A program made the position numbers and the translations under genes. From contig ML976796.1 in the NCBI GenBank assembly GCA_010015655.1, positions 1-64,000 of the forward strand: a DNA stretch of 64,000 nt. The letters run 5' to 3'. This document shows positions 15,871-63,299 of the stretch, in pieces; position 1 is the first letter of the stretch; each line of letters begins with the position of its first letter. The notes beneath the pieces were generated by a model. The model saw only the letters and a program-made list of their open reading frames with translations, was not told the origin of the DNA and did no database searches. Source of the DNA: Bimuria novae-zelandiae CBS 107.79 (lineage: Eukaryota; Ascomycota; Dothideomycetes; Pleosporales; Didymosphaeriaceae).

Positions 15871-16845
15871 TTATTTACGCCCGGCGGCCGAGCCGAAAGG
15901 GCTACTAACACTGGCTATTACTACACTGCTTATGCTACATCGCGGCCTCACTAGCCTCTGTGTCTTCCTTAACTCGCGTCTTCATGCCGCTTGTTATTCT
16001 AGTTAAAGCTCTTGCTTAATATATATGTCGCTTATTCTCTACCTGCTGTCTCTTATTAAGCGCTCGTAGGTTAGTATTATTAGTAGTAGACTAGCTTAGA
16101 TTCGGCATCTCTAAGAGATTCTCTAAGTATTTAGCGTCTTATTTTTAGTAGCTAAAGCGCTGTCTGCTCTATACTATATAAGTTTGTTAATAAGTGTTAT
16201 GTTAGTAGATAAGGTTTATCTAGTTATTAGATATTAATTTGTGTTAAGTCTTCCTATTACTAGTGTAAATCGAATTGTTGCTTGCACTGCGTCCATGTCT
16301 AGCGCCCACTTCGCGCCGTCTGTTGCTACTTTACCGCCCAGGTAGAGCGACATGTTTCCTCTACCTGTCTGCGTGCACTGCAGCATCTCTGTTCGCTGTG
16401 CTATCTACCGTCTGCATTAAAACAAGAAGTGCTCCACTGTCTCTACCGCCTGTCCGCACTCACACTGGTCTGTGTCGTAAGCTTTGATCTGGTGTAGATA
16501 CGTGTTTAGCTGTGCCATGCCTGTTCTGAGCTGTGCGAGCACGCTGCTTTCTTTCCGCGATAGCTGGTCGTACAGTTGTCGAGTGTGCTTTCCTGGCAGT
16601 GCCGCGTCGATTCGCTTAGAGTAGTTTCCTACTTTTTCTGGCACTTTCTTGGCGTTGCCTTGCTTACGTGCAATATTGTAGGTAGTCGATCGCATCCTAG
16701 GAAGCTGTGTCTGTGGCCTGGCGTCTAGTCTTGTTGACGTCTTTGCCTCTTGCTTGGCGAGGCGTGCGAGCTCGTACTCTTCGCTTGCTGGCAGCCATAG
16801 CGCTGTTACCGTGTTGCCGTCTCTTCTTAGTGTTTGCACGGCCTT
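15871..16845 (-). mobile_element. 5'-truncated LINE (Tad-like non-LTR retrotransposon) 3' fragment
   Basis: Minus-strand frame 16839-16417 reads as the very C-terminus of a LINE polyprotein: KRIDAALPGKHTRQLYDQLS, LAQLRTGMAQLNTYLHQI, then a CECGQAVETVEHFLF zinc-knuckle-like motif (C-x-C-x7-H). This layout is typical after the RNase H domain of fungal Tad-clade elements. The upstream part is missing, as expected from 5' truncation during reverse transcription. The 3' side down to about 15871 has the AT-rich, stop-filled look of a RIP-decayed 3' region. It is a different lineage from the LINE at 21544-27574. Confidence 0.65.
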
Positions 16846-17390: not shown

Positions 17391-20279
17391 ATGGACCAGG
17401 AAACATGGGAAGACACCCTGTTTAAGGTAAGCGTTGCTAGTAATTAGATGCTGTTCTAGCTAACGGAGTAAATATAGAGTGTAAGTATTTAAGTTGCATA
17501 GTCTAACCCTTCTTTTAACATTTTGGACTATAGGTTGTAAGTTGAGCTGCGAATCTTGATATATGAGGCTGCTGCTGACCCTGGTTTGTTTTGTGGTGTA
17601 GNNNNNNNNNNNNNNNNNNNNNNNNNNNNNNNNNNNNNNNNNNNNNNNNNNNNNNNNNNNNNNNNNNNNNNNNNNNNNNNNNNNNNNNNNNNNNNNNNNN
17701 NNNNNNNNNNNNNNNNNNNNNNNNNNNNNNNNNNNNNNNNNNNNNNNNNNNNNNNNNNNNNNNNNNNNNNNNNNNNNNNNNNNNNNNNNNNNNNNNNNNN
17801 NNNNNNNNNNNNNNNNNNNNNNNNNNNNNNNNNNNNNNNNNNNNNNNNNNNNNNNNNNNNNNNNNNNNNNNNNNNNNNNNNNNNNNNNNNNNNNNNNNNN
17901 NNNNNNNNNNNNNNNNNNNNNNNNNNNNNNNNNNNNNNNNNNATATATGAGGCTGCTGCTAACCCTGGTTTGTTTTGTGGTGTAGTATGTAAGTTGAGTT
18001 GCGAATCTTGATATATGAGGCTGCTGCTAACCCTGGATTGTTTGGTGGTGTAGCTTGTAAGTTGAGCTGCGAATCTTGATATATGAGGCTGCTGCTGACC
18101 CTGGTTTGTTTTGTGGTGTAGCGAGTAAGTTGAGCTGCGAATCTTGATATATAAGGCTGCTGCTGACCCTGGTTTCTTTGGTAGTGTAGGTTGTAAGTTG
18201 AGCTGCGAATCTTGATATATGAGGCTGCTGCTGACCCTGGTTTGTTTGGTGGTGTAGCGAGTAAGTTGGCCTTTGCACGTATCTGGATGAACTTGAACTA
18301 CTAATTACGTAGCCTGACGTCTGGCATTCTTCCTTTGACAGCACGTTCGCCCAAGGTTTCTTTGAAGCATTACCGGCTGGTACGCTACGGACGCAGCATA
18401 CCCCAGCCCAGTGTTGCAATTGCTGTAGCTCCATTTTAGCTGCTGACTGCGACACTAACCTCTCCGATGTCCGTGCAGCTGAAAAGGATTGTCAATTCTG
18501 CGCTCTACTCCTCCGTACACTTGAGCCCCACGTCATCAATGATGATGGACACGATGTTCGAATCGTTCGTGAAGGGTCGGCGTTGAAAGTAAGGAGCAAT
18601 GGGCAACATGTTCTCTGGGTATCTTCGAATCTAGGTTAGTGTTCCCAGCTCATGTGTATTGGGCAAGCCCCTTGCTTACTGCATTATTTTGCCACAAAAG
18701 GTTCGGTCAACACGAAGACCCACATCCAGACAGAAGGACTAGTTCTTCCTAAAGCTATCAGCTCTGCACGGTTTGAACTACTTCGCACATGGCTTCGTTG
18801 GTGTGATCAACATCAAGACTGCAACATACATGACAGTAGATCGAACCTATTGCTTCCGAGCAGGCTCCTCTGGGTCGGGGATCCAGATGATCAGCATTAC
18901 GATCCTAATTTATTGCGACTGAGCACCACCACCGATAAAAGCGGAGGAAAATATGTCGCGTTATCACATTGTTGGGGCGAACTTCTAACCGAAGTCAAGA
19001 AACACTTTTGCACAACCTCGGATAATATTAGCCGCCGGGAGGGAGGTTTCAGTTTCTGGGAACTGCCAAGGACTTTCCAGGACGCTGTTAAAGTGACGCG
19101 AGAACTTCGCATACCATACATTTGGATCGACTCACTCTGCATTATCCAATACGGCGACAATGGTGAAGATTGGAAACGCGAAGCTGGACGCATGGAAGAG
19201 GTCTTTTCTGGGGCTTACTGCACAATTGCTGCAACTTCGGCCTCAAATTCGTACGCAGGGTTCCTTCAGCCACATATGAAACATGATTATATTCATGTTC
19301 AGGATCCCTCAGGCAACCGATTCTATATCTGTGCTGGTAGGGACGATTTTGACAATGATGTGGAGAAGGCTCTGCTCAACACACGAGCATGGGTAATGCA
19401 AGAAAGAGTCTTGTCTCGACGGACTATCCATTTCAGCGCCAATCAGGTATACTGGGAATGCGGTGAAGGGGTTTACTGCGAAAATCTTACAAGGCTGAAA
19501 AGGTGAGTGCTTAACTGCATCTGACTGTTCAACGCTTTCCTAACTTGGGCATTTCCTTTAGCTCATTCCGAAAAAAGTACTTTATGCTCGACCCAGATTT
19601 TCCGCGGCGGCTCCTTACGTCGGGTTATCTACGTACCATGGAATTCATCCACTTTCTTTCCCAGGACTATTCGAAGCGTGGGCTTACAGAGAAGACTGAC
19701 AGATGTGTGGCAATATCTGGATTAGAAGCCCGTATTGCACGTGCTTTACGCTGCAAAAGCAGATATGGTATCTTTGAGAGGTACTTACACAGGAATCTCC
19801 TCTGGCAGCCGTCCGATATCAAGATGGAGAAGATTGTCTACAAATCCCGACAAGTGCCATCTTGGTCATGGATGGCATATGATGGGGGCATTCGATTCCT
19901 TGATAAAGACATCCAGTTTGGTACCGTTGATTGGATTGCCAACCTCCGGTTCCATGACGAATGCGAACATGTATTGATCGCCGACGTAGGGAAATTCCAG
20001 GATGAAATGGAACTAGATGGGAACTATGCCGTCTTAGATTCTGGCGGAATGGAAAGAGGGTGGACACAATATGATGTTGAGAAAGACAAGGACGAGGGAC
20101 GCAGGGGTCTTTGTGAAGAACGATGTATTGTCGTTGGAAGGGAGACTAAGAACGGTGTTAGAGTTTACCATGTATTAGTTGTCAGACAGACCAGAGATGG
20201 CGAGTATAGGAGGGTGGGAGTTGGGCTGATTCAGAGTGACTGCGTAGTGAGAGAGAGGCTCAGCGTGCGAGTCGTCTGA
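17391..20279 (+). CDS. HET (heterokaryon incompatibility) domain protein, ~625 aa
   Basis: Exon 1 is 17391-17426 (MDQETWEDTLFK). Main exons are 18313-18634, 18701-19502 and 19562-20279, all in phase. The introns at 18635-18700 and 19503-19561 have GTTAGT/GTGAGT donors and AG acceptors. The N-terminal part has the Cys-rich QCCNCCSS and RAAEKDCQFCALLLRTLEP pattern common before HET domains. The HET core begins about residue 204 (YVALSHCWG), with FQDAVKVTRELRIPYIWIDS and then CIIQ, then MEEVFSGAYCTIAATSA, and further on NTRAWVMQERVLSRRTIHF and VYWECGE. HET proteins trigger cell death on non-self fusion. The exon 1-exon 2 interval contains the intron-like array described separately. The coding exons show no stop or RIP damage although repeats flank both sides. 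Partner locus unknown. Confidence 0.85.
17534..18260 (+). repeat. Tandem array of 68-bp intron-like modules in the HET gene
   Basis: Complete units are at 17534-17601, 17986-18053, 18054-18121, 18122-18189 and 18190-18257, with a partial unit at 17943-17985 after the gap. Each is a 3-nt spacer plus a 65-bp module that begins GTAAGTTGAG, carries TGCTGACCC or TGCTAACCC, and ends GTGTAG. That is a full fungal intron: donor, branch site and acceptor. The spacers are GTT, TAT, CTT, CGA, GTT and, before the final non-repeat intron (18261-18312), CGA. All are sense codons in phase 0 with both neighbouring exons. Reading through a full module without splicing meets an in-frame TGA (GTA AGT TGA). Confidence 0.9.
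17602..17942. other. Assembly gap (341 N) inside the repeat array
   Basis: Run of N flanked on both sides by the 68-bp repeat, so the gap most likely holds further copies. The N length is not a whole number of units when the flanking phases are considered, so it should not be read as a measured size. Confidence 0.95.
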
Positions 20280-32699: not shown

Positions 32700-32930
32700 G
32701 CACTACTATATTAATTTGTAGAAAAATAGAAGATTTAATAAATATATTAACACAAACTTATTAATAAAAATTTATTATCAAAAGTTTATTAACAAGTATT
32801 TATTAATAGGAATATGTTAAAAATAGACTAATAAAAATAGATTAATGAAAAAAGATTAAGAAAAATATATTAATAAAAATTTATTAAGAAAAACATACTA
32901 ATAAATATAGTATAGTAAAGATATACTAGA
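32700..32930. repeat. AT-rich degenerate short repeats
   Basis: A series of imperfect TTAATAAAAATTTATTA-type motifs about 17-20 bp apart, leading directly into the ordered 20-bp array. Confidence 0.55.
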
Positions 32931-32935
32931 ACTAG

Positions 32936-33104
32936 GAGATTCGCAAGAATCGCTAGAGATTTGCAAGGATCGCTAGAGATTTGCAAGGATCGCTAGAGAT
33001 TCGAAAAAATCGCTAGAGATTCGAAAAAATTGCTAGAGATTTGAAAAAATCGCTAGAGATTTGCAAGGATCGCTAGAGATTCGCAAAAATCGCTAAAGAT
33101 TCTA
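32936..33104. repeat. 20-bp tandem array of short hairpins (~8 units)
   Basis: About eight copies of GAGATTCGCAAGAATCGCTA with an exact 20-bp period. Each unit can fold as a 5-bp stem (GATTC/GAATC) with a 4-nt loop. Variants change the stem and loop by transitions (TTGCAAGGATC, TCGAAAAAATC). It is too regular to be RIP debris. Confidence 0.85.
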
Positions 33105-57184: not shown

Positions 57185-57342
<158 letters not shown>

Positions 57343-59263: not shown

Positions 59264-60852
59264 ATGGGCGACAGCACTCCCGCACCCCTCGACGATGTGG
59301 TGCTGAAGCTGAAGCGCGAGTTCGGGACCGCCGTGCTACAGCCAGGCGAGTCCGCGTACGAGGAAGAGAACGGCAGATTCTGGAATAGGGATAACAGTGA
59401 CGTGCGCCCGAAGGCTATCCTCACGCCTTCGTCGTCGCAAGATGCTGCGTTTGTCCTCCCCTCCCCTCCCCCGTCCATTCTAACGTCCATCCAGATCCAT
59501 CATCCACACCCTAAGCAGCACAAAAACCCCCTTCGCAATCCGCTCCGGCGGCTACATGCCCACGCCCTCCTACAACACCTCCCCCTCCATCCTCCTCAGC
59601 TTGCGCAGGTTCTCCTCCATCGAGCTACTGCAAGGCGACAGAGTGCGCTTCGGCACCGGGTGCCAGTGGGGCAGCGTGTACGACGTGCTCGAGCCGCACG
59701 GCCTCGTCGTACCAGGCGGGCGCTCGCGCCATGTCGGCGTCGGCGGCTTCCTCCTGCACGGCGGCATTTCGCACTTCTACGGCGCGACCGGCTGGGCGTG
59801 TGAGTCTATCCTCGCGTTCGAAGTAGTCCTTCCGGATGGCAGGGTGGTGGAGGCGAGTCAGGGGAGAGAGGAAGAGCTGTTCTGGGCGCTGAAAGGCGGG
59901 GGTAAGAATTTCGGGTGTGTTACTGCGTTTACGATGCAGTGTCAGCGGTTGGGGAAGATATGGGGAGGTTCAAGGGTCGCGCTGGGGACGCCAGGCGTTG
60001 CGGTGCAGGTTTTTGATGCGACGCATGGGTTGCTTGGGGAGGAGGTGGATGAGAAGGCACACGTGGAGGTTATCTCGTTTTATAATCCATACGCGTGTCC
60101 AGGCGGGGATCCGATGTTTTCACTGTCGCTGGCGTACGCGGGGGAGGTTGAGAAGCCAGAGGGCCTGAAGGCGTTCTTGGAGGTGGAGGCCGTGGCGGAC
60201 ACGACGAGGCCAACTTCGCAGAGGGAGTTGGCCGATGATGAGAAGAACTTCATTGGGTTTGATAAGAGGTATGTTAACATTTCAAAGACGTGGAAGGGAA
60301 GAGATTGATTGACTAGACCAGGGCCCTTTTCCGCGGGTTTAGTTATCGAGGGAGTCCGGAGCTGACGTTGGACGTGTACAACGCGTTCTACGCCGCGGCG
60401 AAAGCGAGTGGTATGTTCGAGCTCGAACCCTCGGCATTGGCAGCAGTTCTATGGTCCCCTATCAATCGGAAGATGGCCGCTAGGACCAGCGCAGTGTCCC
60501 TGGGTGAAGATGCGGAACCGTATCTCTGTGAGCTCATCCTTTTCCTTGCACACCCTCGAAAGAATCCGCCTAATTCATGTTTCCAGTATTCTGCATGAAT
60601 TTCCGCTGGGAGAATCCAGAGGTCTCAACCAAGATGCACTCGATCGCAAACCGCATCGCAGACGAATTAAAGCAGAAACTGAGGGATGCGGACGCGTTCA
60701 TACCGTACACATACGGCAACATTGCAGGCGTGGATGACGTGACGTATGCAGGTTTGCCTGAGAAGACCAGGCAGCGCTTGAGAGAGGTGGCCGCGAAGTA
60801 TGATCCGCAGGGCGTATTTCAAAAGCAGGTTGCTGGCTTCAAACTCGAGTAG
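59264..60852 (+). CDS. FAD-linked oxidase (PCMH/BBE-like family), 469 aa, four exons
   Basis: Exons 59264-59448, 59495-60268, 60343-60527 and 60587-60852 join in phase. Intron 1 (46 bp) starts GTTTGT, has TTCTAAC and ends CCAG; introns 2 and 3 start GTATGT and GTGAGC. The FAD-binding PCMH fold is clear: PKAILTPSSSQDAASIIHTL, TPFAIRSGGYMPTP, IELLQGDRVRFGTGCQWGSV, PHGLVVPGGRSRHVGVGGF, LLHGGISHFYG, and FWALKGGGKNFGCVTAFTM. The C-terminus has AAKYDPQGVFQKQVAGF. Family members oxidise varied small molecules, often in secondary metabolism. The usual FAD-linking His in RSGGH is Tyr82 here, and the second covalent-site Cys is also absent (GGRSRHVG), so FAD is probably held non-covalently. There is no signal peptide, unlike many secreted relatives. 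Substrate unknown. Confidence 0.9.
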
Positions 60853-62045: not shown

Positions 62046-63299
62046 TTACCCGTCACTTTCCTGCTCCTTCTTTTGCAGCTCTCGGTACCAAAGCGCTGTG
62101 GCGAGAGCAATGACGCTTCCAAACGTCCCCCCAATGATCATGCGTCCTCTGAAGCCCTGTTTCCGCTTTAGCGCTTCGTCATCGCCTAGGATCTTGACTG
62201 CGCTCTTCGTCCATACGTAGCTCAGACCGGAGTACGCAGTTGTGGCAGCTACCCCGCCGCTCATGACTTCTTTCATTCGTGCCACGCCTTCAGGACCGCC
62301 CAAAGCGTCCTGGAGTGAGAGGAGAAGGCCACCGGCGGATGATGATACAGCTGAGGGATCATGTAGAAGGGCTACGGCCATCGTGGTACCAATGAGTCCA
62401 AGTTGGAGGAATGTGTTGAGCTTCGAGATGGTCGTAGGGTGCACTTCGGCGGAAGGAAGGCTGAAGTCCCAGTATCGAGCAAACGTCTTCGGCGCGGGTA
62501 AAGAGGCGTATCGAAAGTAAATCGCCGCAATAGCAAGGCTGGCGTCTCGCCCCAAGATCAATGTCGCAAGGGGGAGTGAGAGGCTGCCATTGATTGCAAG
62601 GCAAGATACTAGAGTCGTCATGAGGAACTTGTCGGCCATGGGATCGATGACGCTCCCCACAACGGTTTGGAGGTTCCATCGGCGCGCTATCCATCCGTCA
62701 AGGAGGTCGGAGAAGCCGGCGTACACGAACAATGAGAAAGCCCATAGGTGGTGATCGTTGACGATTAGATACCCAAGAACAGGTGTTGCGAAGAGTCGAG
62801 AGAAGGTGAGCACGTTAGGTATGTTCCACACTTCCTCGCGCTTTAACGTTGGGATTTTTGCTTTCAGCGTTGCTGTGAGCTTAGTTGTCTCTGAAAGCGG
62901 TTTCTGGTATTGTCAAATAATGTCCAGGATGTCTTATGGCTATTAGAAGAAACAGTGCATTATGAAAGCTACTTTATCACTTACCTGGTCACGTTCGCCG
63001 GCTGTAGGACGCACGTTTGTGGGCTCCGATTTGTCCACACCATTTTGTTTCGACCTCAAGGAAGCCGAGGTAGCAATGGTACCTCGTTGCTCCACAATTC
63101 GGCTTTGGAGCCCAACTCTTGATGGTAGCCTCAGTATGCTACCATAGGCGCTAAAACTTGATGTGCCATAGCGAGACGACCAGAAACAAGAGGCACGTGA
63201 GAGTACAGGGGCAAGGCTTTGTCGCGCCACCGGAAGCCGGGAAACGGTCCGTATCTCATATCTCGAGAGCGCATTCAATACGGTGGTGGTTGGAGGCAT
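62046..63299 (-). CDS. CRD1: Mitochondrial cardiolipin synthase (CDP-alcohol phosphatidyltransferase), 390 aa, two exons
   Basis: Exon 1 is 63299-62985 and exon 2 is 62903-62046. The 81-bp intron starts GTAAGT and ends CCAG, with phase 0. Exon 1 encodes an Arg/Ser-rich presequence (VLNALSRYEIRTVSRLPVAR) fitting mitochondrial import. Exon 2 encodes NIPNVLTFSRLFATPVLGYL and the family signature D-G-x2-A-R-x8-G-x3-D-x3-D, complete at about residues 174-196 (LLDGWIARRW, then VGSVIDPMADK), followed by several membrane helices. The enzyme condenses CDP-diacylglycerol with phosphatidylglycerol to make cardiolipin in the inner membrane. The N-terminus and motif context fit eukaryotic cardiolipin synthase better than phosphatidylglycerophosphate synthase (PGS1 is a phospholipase-D-type enzyme). 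The gene symbol follows yeast usage. Confidence 0.9.

Follow-up and report, generated by a model that had tools for sequence, protein, structure and literature searches.

Chains of intron-like units separated by single codons in a HET-domain gene and at further loci of Bimuria novae-zelandiae

The micro-exon genes (MEGs) of Schistosoma mansoni encode secreted proteins from many very short exons, most of which are multiples of three in length, and they are difficult to annotate and generate diversity through exon use (PMC10526429). Their exons are mostly 15 bp (the minimum is 6 bp in the text and 3 bp in the abstract of that account), and their introns range from about 100 to 5000 bp. Aphid bicycle genes are fast-evolving putative effectors that were recognised via their exon-intron structure (PMC9168663). 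Isolated microexons of 1–3 nt in plants (PMC8831610) and in Drosophila homothorax (PMC7392893) indicate that spliceosomes can include exons of this size, and among fungi a microexon is used in Trichoderma Xlr2; the 2024 account of that gene presents functional microexons as new to filamentous fungi (PMC11121469). Fungi also possess stwintrons, complex introns that are spliced consecutively and some of which multiply in the genome (PMC9024468), and the Dothideomycetes harbor introner-like elements, many near-identical introns in the same fungal class as the organism studied here (PMC4457414, PMC9860276). Here we describe, in the soil fungus Bimuria novae-zelandiae CBS 107.79 (Dothideomycetes, Pleosporales), a HET-domain gene in which two exons are parted by a chain of intron-like units spaced exactly 3 nt apart, together with similar arrays elsewhere in the 77.4-Mb assembly. 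The gene lies in a stretch of 64,000 nucleotides (C141:1-64000, hereafter the window; contigs are given by our own numbers).

In gene anatomy, and in that respect only, the Bimuria arrays resemble MEGs, with many short multiple-of-three exons between larger end exons, but the exons of the chain are all single codons, the introns are 51–72 nt long and mostly tandem near-copies, and the host is a fungus. Isolated microexons are described as occurring one or two per gene, not dozens chained. Stwintrons are nested, with an internal intron lodged inside the donor, branch site, or acceptor of the surrounding intron, whereas the Bimuria units are adjacent, with one codon (3 nt) from each acceptor to the next donor. 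Introner-like elements are dispersed over many genes; the Bimuria units stand in tandem within a gene, and a word-based search, in which diverged lone copies could escape, found matches in arrays only. Bicycle genes are said to have many small exons, but neither single codons nor tandem copies of one intron. Duplication of an exon-intron border can also create a new intron, and the end of exon 1 in one Bimuria array (on contig C90, described below) matches a unit border; that process, however, is reported to yield a single new intron and not an array with a variable codon. Among the papers listed in searches of the open-licence literature, which leaves most subscription papers uncovered, none has a title or abstract opening that describes chained single-codon exons. 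A cautious and conservative classification would treat the arrays as an extreme form of micro-exon genes.

The gene in the window encodes a protein with 2122 matches, and the best 120 of these all contain PF06985 (HET), relatives through which we assign it as a HET-domain gene. Its first exon, of 12 codons, and its second exon are both in phase 0 (Table 1). The preliminary description of the window reported at least six 65-bp modules between them; five are complete, and a sixth lies partly inside a 341-N assembly gap. All five complete modules retain the donor GTAAGT, the branch motif TGCTRAC, and the acceptor GTGTAG, the six spacers that had been listed (GTT, TAT, CTT, CGA, GTT, and CGA) are indeed sense codons, and reading from phase 0 meets a stop in each of the eight complete visible introns. 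The chain begins and ends in introns of other sequence: introns A (51 nt) and B (53 nt) at the start, which are separated by AGT and followed by GTT, and intron C (52 nt) at the end. When aligned to the module and to each other with donor and acceptor excluded, introns A, B, and C scored z values of -1.5 to 0.5 against shuffles, while the positive control, the window module against a module from contig C93, scored 9.5. Because these three introns are unlike the module, the 3-nt spacing is not merely the period of one repeat. The four complete modules 3' of the gap are spaced 68 bp, and the distance of 384 bp between the starts of the modules on either side of the gap represents a non-integer number of units, since the size of the gap is only estimated. 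The units carry the traits of U2-type fungal introns (GT donor, CTRAY-like branch as judged by eye, YAG acceptor, and fungal length), and the codon slots of the window gene read S, V, gap, YLRVR.

The 3-nt rule extends beyond the window. Across the genome, the pattern GTAAGT-N40-65-TAG-NNN-GTAAGT had 57 matches, compared to 1 for a reversed-pattern control, with 35 of the 57 inside arrays and 22 dispersed as counted from the listing; this splice-grammar pattern revealed the C90 array in addition to the arrays found by DNA search. A version ending in CAG had 21 matches (control 4), of which 17 were on C90, 2 on C27, 1 on C93, and 1 dispersed. With spacers of 4 nt (20 matches, control 4) or 6 nt (21 matches, control 6), none fell in these arrays, which among spacer lengths of 3, 4, and 6 nt were matched by 3 nt only; two overlapping 4-nt matches on C48 belong to a 17-bp minisatellite. 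Other donors combined with a 3-nt spacer gave no cluster (GTGAGT, 3 matches against 4 in the control; GTATGT, 23 dispersed matches against 4). The spacer length holds across introns that are unlike one another, namely those of 51, 53, 65, and 52 nt in the window, 65 and 58 nt in a HET paralogue on C93, and 65–72 nt on C90. A broad early pattern had 716 matches (control 113), dominated by AT-rich repeats among the roughly 100 first listed. In a set of 50 loci (L001-L050), 3-nt chains were confined to the window array, a C93 array, and one stray site in L042, and the viral contigs searched contained no match. The search with the TAG pattern also encountered a dispersed repeat family with intron-like ends (GTAAGTAACCTAGCTCTYRCTTACTAGTTC.., for example at C5:307747, C14:680032, and C49:48673), and copies of GTAAGTATTTTGTGTATTTTAC..TTGCTRAC occur on C2, C7, C15, and C17.

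The chain had initially been taken to be confined to one gene, but further arrays are present on C93, C24, C55, C40, and C90. Arrays of the 65-bp module number seven in the genome including the window, one of which (C40) consists of two broken units only. A DNA search with the array of the C93 HET paralogue produced 34 matches, which represent C24, C55, two further C93 arrays, the two broken C40 units, and the window; the window module alone found 6, all in its own array, and a C90 double unit found 18. An introner-like spread, which the preliminary description had raised, did not appear in these searches: every match lay in an array and no lone copy was returned, although this absence carries little weight because the searches also missed known relatives (the other arrays in the case of the window unit, and a remnant on C27 in the case of the C90 double unit). 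The C93 paralogue shares 60% identity with the window protein over the main exon and 34% over exon 2. At the same intron position it contains units 65 and 58 nt long and the spacers GAG and GGT, followed by a last intron (GTACGT..AACAG) and a phase-0 exon 2 starting YQNW, all downstream of a 1070-N gap. Its public gene model, P0048, matches C93 at 100% over all 388 residues and begins about 470 bases downstream of the array.

The codons of the other module arrays read RSYDLYRLDEGSLRRM (C93a), IYDELSLRDREL (C93b), EG (C93c), GNFGIE (C24), and GFGIE (C55). By eye, C93a and C24 keep the 3-nt rule in their 5' parts too, there with other introns (spacers CCA and GAA in C93a, AGA and GAA in C24), and the stretch upstream of C93a, which starts with an exon MEATNALNTVKKAFKGLFKKKSKEKKDEANP.., resembles that of C24; this first exon of C93a matched no significant Pfam family. 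Splice ends deviate on C24, where one acceptor is GAG and one donor GTAAAT, and on C93, which has GTAGGT donors. On C40, past the mariner-like element that follows the two degraded units, TAG-AAC-GTAAGTTGACTTG resumes with the same AAC slot as C24. Transposon-like sequence, as judged by eye, adjoins both the C93b and the C40 array.

The C90 array offers a coherent reading. On the minus strand, ATGAGATTTTTGGTGCTC.. encodes MRFLVLFGMLMPSMTLVVQG, which is followed by 31 introns of 65–72 nt, each succeeded by one codon; the 31 single codons spell QCPGCEGVFCQVDTDCCFYCCKGVCSPATGC, after which a final intron, identified by eye, leads to GKSG-stop. Exon 1 resembles a signal peptide by eye, which exon 1 of the window gene does not, and it is in frame with the 31 codons, all of which are sense. 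Nine of the 31 residues are cysteines, compared to a mean of 4.8 in shuffles within codon positions (P(>=9) = 0.0035), such that the product would be a putative secreted cysteine-rich peptide. Among the 31 units, donors are GTAAGT (29), GTGAGT (1), and GTAAGA (1), and acceptors are CAG (18), TAG (12), and AAG (1). Retention of one intron would introduce an internal stop for 29 of the 32 introns. A remnant of a C90-like gene lies on C27, where one upstream unit ends in CAA in place of CAG and where, by eye, the 3' flank is similar to its C90 counterpart. The last exon of the remnant, CTPPNTGTLA-stop, is one ordinary exon, whereas C90 carries C, S, P, A, T, G, and C as separate exons, a short parallel that is suggestive.

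Codons and introns of the arrays diverge differently. In C90 the entropies of the three codon positions are 1.76, 1.89, and 0.99 bits, against a mean of 0.55 for the intron body and 1.52 for its highest column, and pairs of units at a body divergence of 0.10–0.15 (40 of 465 pairs) differ on average by 0.128 in introns and 0.608 in codons. Units 3-5 and 6-8, which were picked as the closest pairs and look like a segmental duplication, differ at 5 of 9 codon sites and at 8 of 204 intron sites (P = 4e-5). The third codon position of C90 is T in 24 of 31 codons while positions 1 and 2 are variable, as expected if residues had been selected to change from an NNT ancestor; this bias is absent in C93a and C93b (entropies 2.0 and 1.96). 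In C93a and C93b (23 units of 65 nt), transitions account for 94% of intron differences, a pattern like that of repeat-induced point mutation (RIP), and for 32% of codon differences, approximately the value for unrelated triplets; these counts excluded units other than 65 nt in C93 or 69 nt in C90. In the five window units, all 3 spacer columns vary, compared to 7 of the 65 module columns (P = 0.002). Finally, none of 72 codon slots is a stop (P about 5e-4 relative to the arrays' own triplets, an approximate value because slots share descent); the test excluded the C55 codons, which nearly duplicate those of C24, as well as 2 codons of C93c and 3 of C27.

Additional evidence comes from relatives of the window protein. 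Exons 1 and 2 align by eye without a gap to Lepidopterella palustris P0007 (MGAEKWKDSSFQ-YDGWEHTFDNNF), which supports the outer exons of the window gene. We scored five homologue N-termini, chosen by eye among 43 of the 120 listed matches. In P0045 (..VQDRDRVVRYEER-YNNW), P0031 (..YYRDDRVR-GDEW), and P0029 (..YYHYRERE-SQNW), the stretch immediately before the exon 2 equivalent matches the residue make-up of the codon slots in the 65-nt-module arrays (43 residues) at 0.43–0.52 bits per residue, where 99% of random 13-mers score below 0.30. By eye, the R-V-R of P0031 sits exactly at the R-V-R of the window that precedes PDVW, and the E of P0045 is at the position of the E in C93c. The contigs that carry P0031 and P0045 measure about 2.1–2.2 kb and consist mostly of these sequences, which, judging from the lengths and the lgn source label, may be transcript assemblies. 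A protein search with the N-terminal 130 residues only gave 0 of 311 candidates at E<=0.001.

We consider it likely that the units are introns that are spliced out individually and that the codons between them stay in the mRNA as translated exons on which diversifying selection acts; splicing, translation, the role of selection in codon divergence, and a function of the residues are what we infer from the sequences. The preliminary description had left open whether the spacer codons are coding, a possibility for which the C90 peptide, the randomised codons, and the absence of stops now provide better support. Intron definition in fungi ordinarily acts on introns such as these, 50–72 nt long and equipped with good donors and branch sites, which makes serial, one-by-one removal plausible. 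The array would be a chain in which true short spliceosomal introns alternate with one-codon exons and which grows via tandem duplication of a cassette of intron and codon, and excision of the introns one by one would yield a mature mRNA with a run of single residues between exons 1 and 2. Because all spacers are 3 nt, any donor could be joined to any later acceptor in frame, and skipped codons would cost only residues. Introns would be kept alike by recent duplication, unequal exchange, or conversion, while the codons would diverge because the residues that they encode are under diversifying selection. For C90, the array may have arisen through a duplication across the exon 1-intron 1 border, in which a CAG three bases before the donor supplied the acceptor, so that the leftover exon would be exactly one codon. 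Consistent with this origin, the 24 nt that straddle the junction of C90 exon 1 with the first donor recur once, at a unit border. We regard inclusion of the codons in mRNA as highly probable for C90 and as somewhat favored for the window gene.

Several observations weigh against this reading. P0007 joins the equivalents of exons 1 and 2 without any added residue, which fits skipping of the entire array, and neither P0007 nor P0022 displays the make-up of the codon-slot residues. Annotations do tend to overlook 3-nt exons, which tempers the point about P0007. The protein collection searched contained no homologue of the C90 peptide, whose Pfam and PDB matches, to I-superfamily conotoxins at the cysteine framework, are non-significant (E 0.41 and 0.32); we claim neither kinship with conotoxins nor such an activity. 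Against shuffles, the lack of stops in C90 taken alone does not reach significance (P = 0.27), codons are identical in 4 of 10 C90 unit pairs with less than 10% intron divergence, and the recurring 24 nt may instead place a unit border at the end of C90 exon 1. With splice ends excluded, two C90 units scored z 3.3-3.5 and z 1.5-2.1 against the module, well short of the 9.5 of the positive control, and this likeness comes partly from the branch site and GGTGGTG; the C90 units appear clearly different from the module, and a distant common origin is possible. Lastly, the transition-rich, RIP-like C93a and C93b may be dead genes.

The gapless alignment by eye with P0007 would also be expected if the 886-nt region between exons 1 and 2 (more if the gap is larger) were spliced from first donor to last acceptor as one big intron, with the units as an intronic minisatellite whose motifs are inherited. 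Repeats that share descent do have non-independent motifs, and exons of 3 nt are in general hard to include; we nevertheless judge this explanation unlikely, since it accounts neither for the 3-nt spacing across unlike introns nor for codon-only randomisation and the lack of stops, and in C90 it would leave just the signal-peptide-like exon and GKSG. A different history, in which one intron was copied into every phase-0 boundary of an older coding sequence so that the codons would long predate the introns, agrees with the codon differences of C93a and C93b, which look fully random, alongside introns that differ mostly by transitions, and introner-like elements do occur in Dothideomycetes (PMC4457414). 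Such insertion, however, requires that every phase-0 site was hit and none else, and the DNA searches, within their limited sensitivity, returned no lone copies. It also sits poorly with the resemblance of C90 units 3-5 and 6-8 to a duplicated segment with changed codons and with CAA units 1 and 11, which share 97% of the intron. These two cases indicate that codon and intron travel together, and we consider saturated insertion distinctly improbable.

It is more doubtful still that the arrays are decayed and non-coding, that is, RIP-mutated satellite-like repeats with no present function in which the 3-nt spacers persist by descent or chance. The RIP-like transitions in C93a and C93b and the transposon-like sequence seen by eye beside C93b and C40 would suit such decay, but the window array lies within a gene with open flanking exons, the C90 array is flanked by an open first exon on one side and a stop on the other, and all 72 slots are free of stops.

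On the preferred reading, single removal of introns that leaves translated codons, one architecture would be shared by several kinds of gene in this genome, HET proteins as well as a small secreted cysteine-rich peptide. We hold a broader proposal to be marginally more credible than not: the arrays would define a class of codon-cassette genes in which duplication, exchange, and selection all act on a unit made of an intron plus one codon, and in which protein segments are built one exon per residue. These segments, the mature part of the C90 peptide and an N-terminal stretch of self-recognition HET proteins, could be lengthened, shortened, and reordered residue by residue in frame, and splicing may skip any subset of them.

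Table 1. Positions of the HET gene features in the window and of arrays and remnants on other contigs.
Feature	Position	Strand	Remarks
Exon 1, ATG..AAG, 12 codons (MDQETWEDTLFK), phase-0 end	17391..17426	+	gapless with exon 2 to Lepidopterella palustris P0007 N-terminus, by eye
Intron A, 51 nt, GTAAGC..CTAAC..ATAG, no detectable module relation	17427..17477	+	
Single-codon exon AGT (Ser)	17478..17480	+	
Intron B, 53 nt, GTAAGT..CTAAC/TTAAC..ATAG, no detectable module relation	17481..17533	+	
Single-codon exon GTT (Val)	17534..17536	+	
65-nt intron module	17537..17601	+	
Assembly gap, 341 N, space for ~5 more units	17602..17942	.	
65-nt intron module, first 22 nt inside gap	17921..17985	+	
Single-codon exon TAT (Tyr)	17986..17988	+	
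65-nt intron module	17989..18053	+	
Single-codon exon CTT (Leu)	18054..18056	+	
65-nt intron module	18057..18121	+	
Single-codon exon CGA (Arg)	18122..18124	+	
65-nt intron module	18125..18189	+	
Single-codon exon GTT (Val)	18190..18192	+	
65-nt intron module	18193..18257	+	
Single-codon exon CGA (Arg)	18258..18260	+	
Intron C (last), 52 nt, GTAAGT..CTAAT..GTAG, no detectable module relation	18261..18312	+	
Exon 2 (PDVWHSSFDSTFAQGFF..), HET protein proper begins, phase 0	18313..18634	+	end by eye
Exon 3, HET domain	18701..19502	+	both ends by eye
Exon 4, C-terminal part and stop	19562..20279	+	start by eye
Three module arrays within 20 kb of one scaffold	C93:185024-186102, 192165-192994, 204695-204824		
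Array copy, two degraded units, then mariner-like transposon with inverted ends	C40:~246080-246185	-	transposon named by eye
C90-like gene remnant: three codon slots AAC, AAC, GGT; multi-codon last exon	C27:577300-577660	-	

An RNA structure of the units was also considered and rejected, as shuffled sequences fold at least as well as the window units (z 1.25 to 1.53; two window units jointly, z 0.40); folding of the C93 units is weak (z -0.47 and -1.27). Directly upstream of the HET gene, an open reading frame at 16417-16839 on the minus strand resembles the C-terminal end of a polyprotein, putatively that of a long interspersed nuclear element. Elsewhere in the window, an AT-rich minisatellite (14/28 bp) lies beside another of 20 bp at 32740-33102, and an AAT microsatellite of about 52 copies occupies 57186-57341. 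The open reading frames at 59556-60308 (plus strand) and 62046-62831 (minus strand) may encode an FAD-linked oxidase and a CDP-alcohol phosphatidyltransferase, respectively, judging from their sequences.

Gene finders would overlook the whole class of such genes, as illustrated by the P0048 model that starts downstream of its array. The arrays are a natural substrate for testing the minimum exon size in chained splicing, intron versus exon definition, and intron multiplication. If the codons are translated, the spliceosome would join 31 consecutive one-codon exons per C90 transcript, beyond the microexon use that we found in print, and the intron arrays would be a device for residue-by-residue protein evolution.

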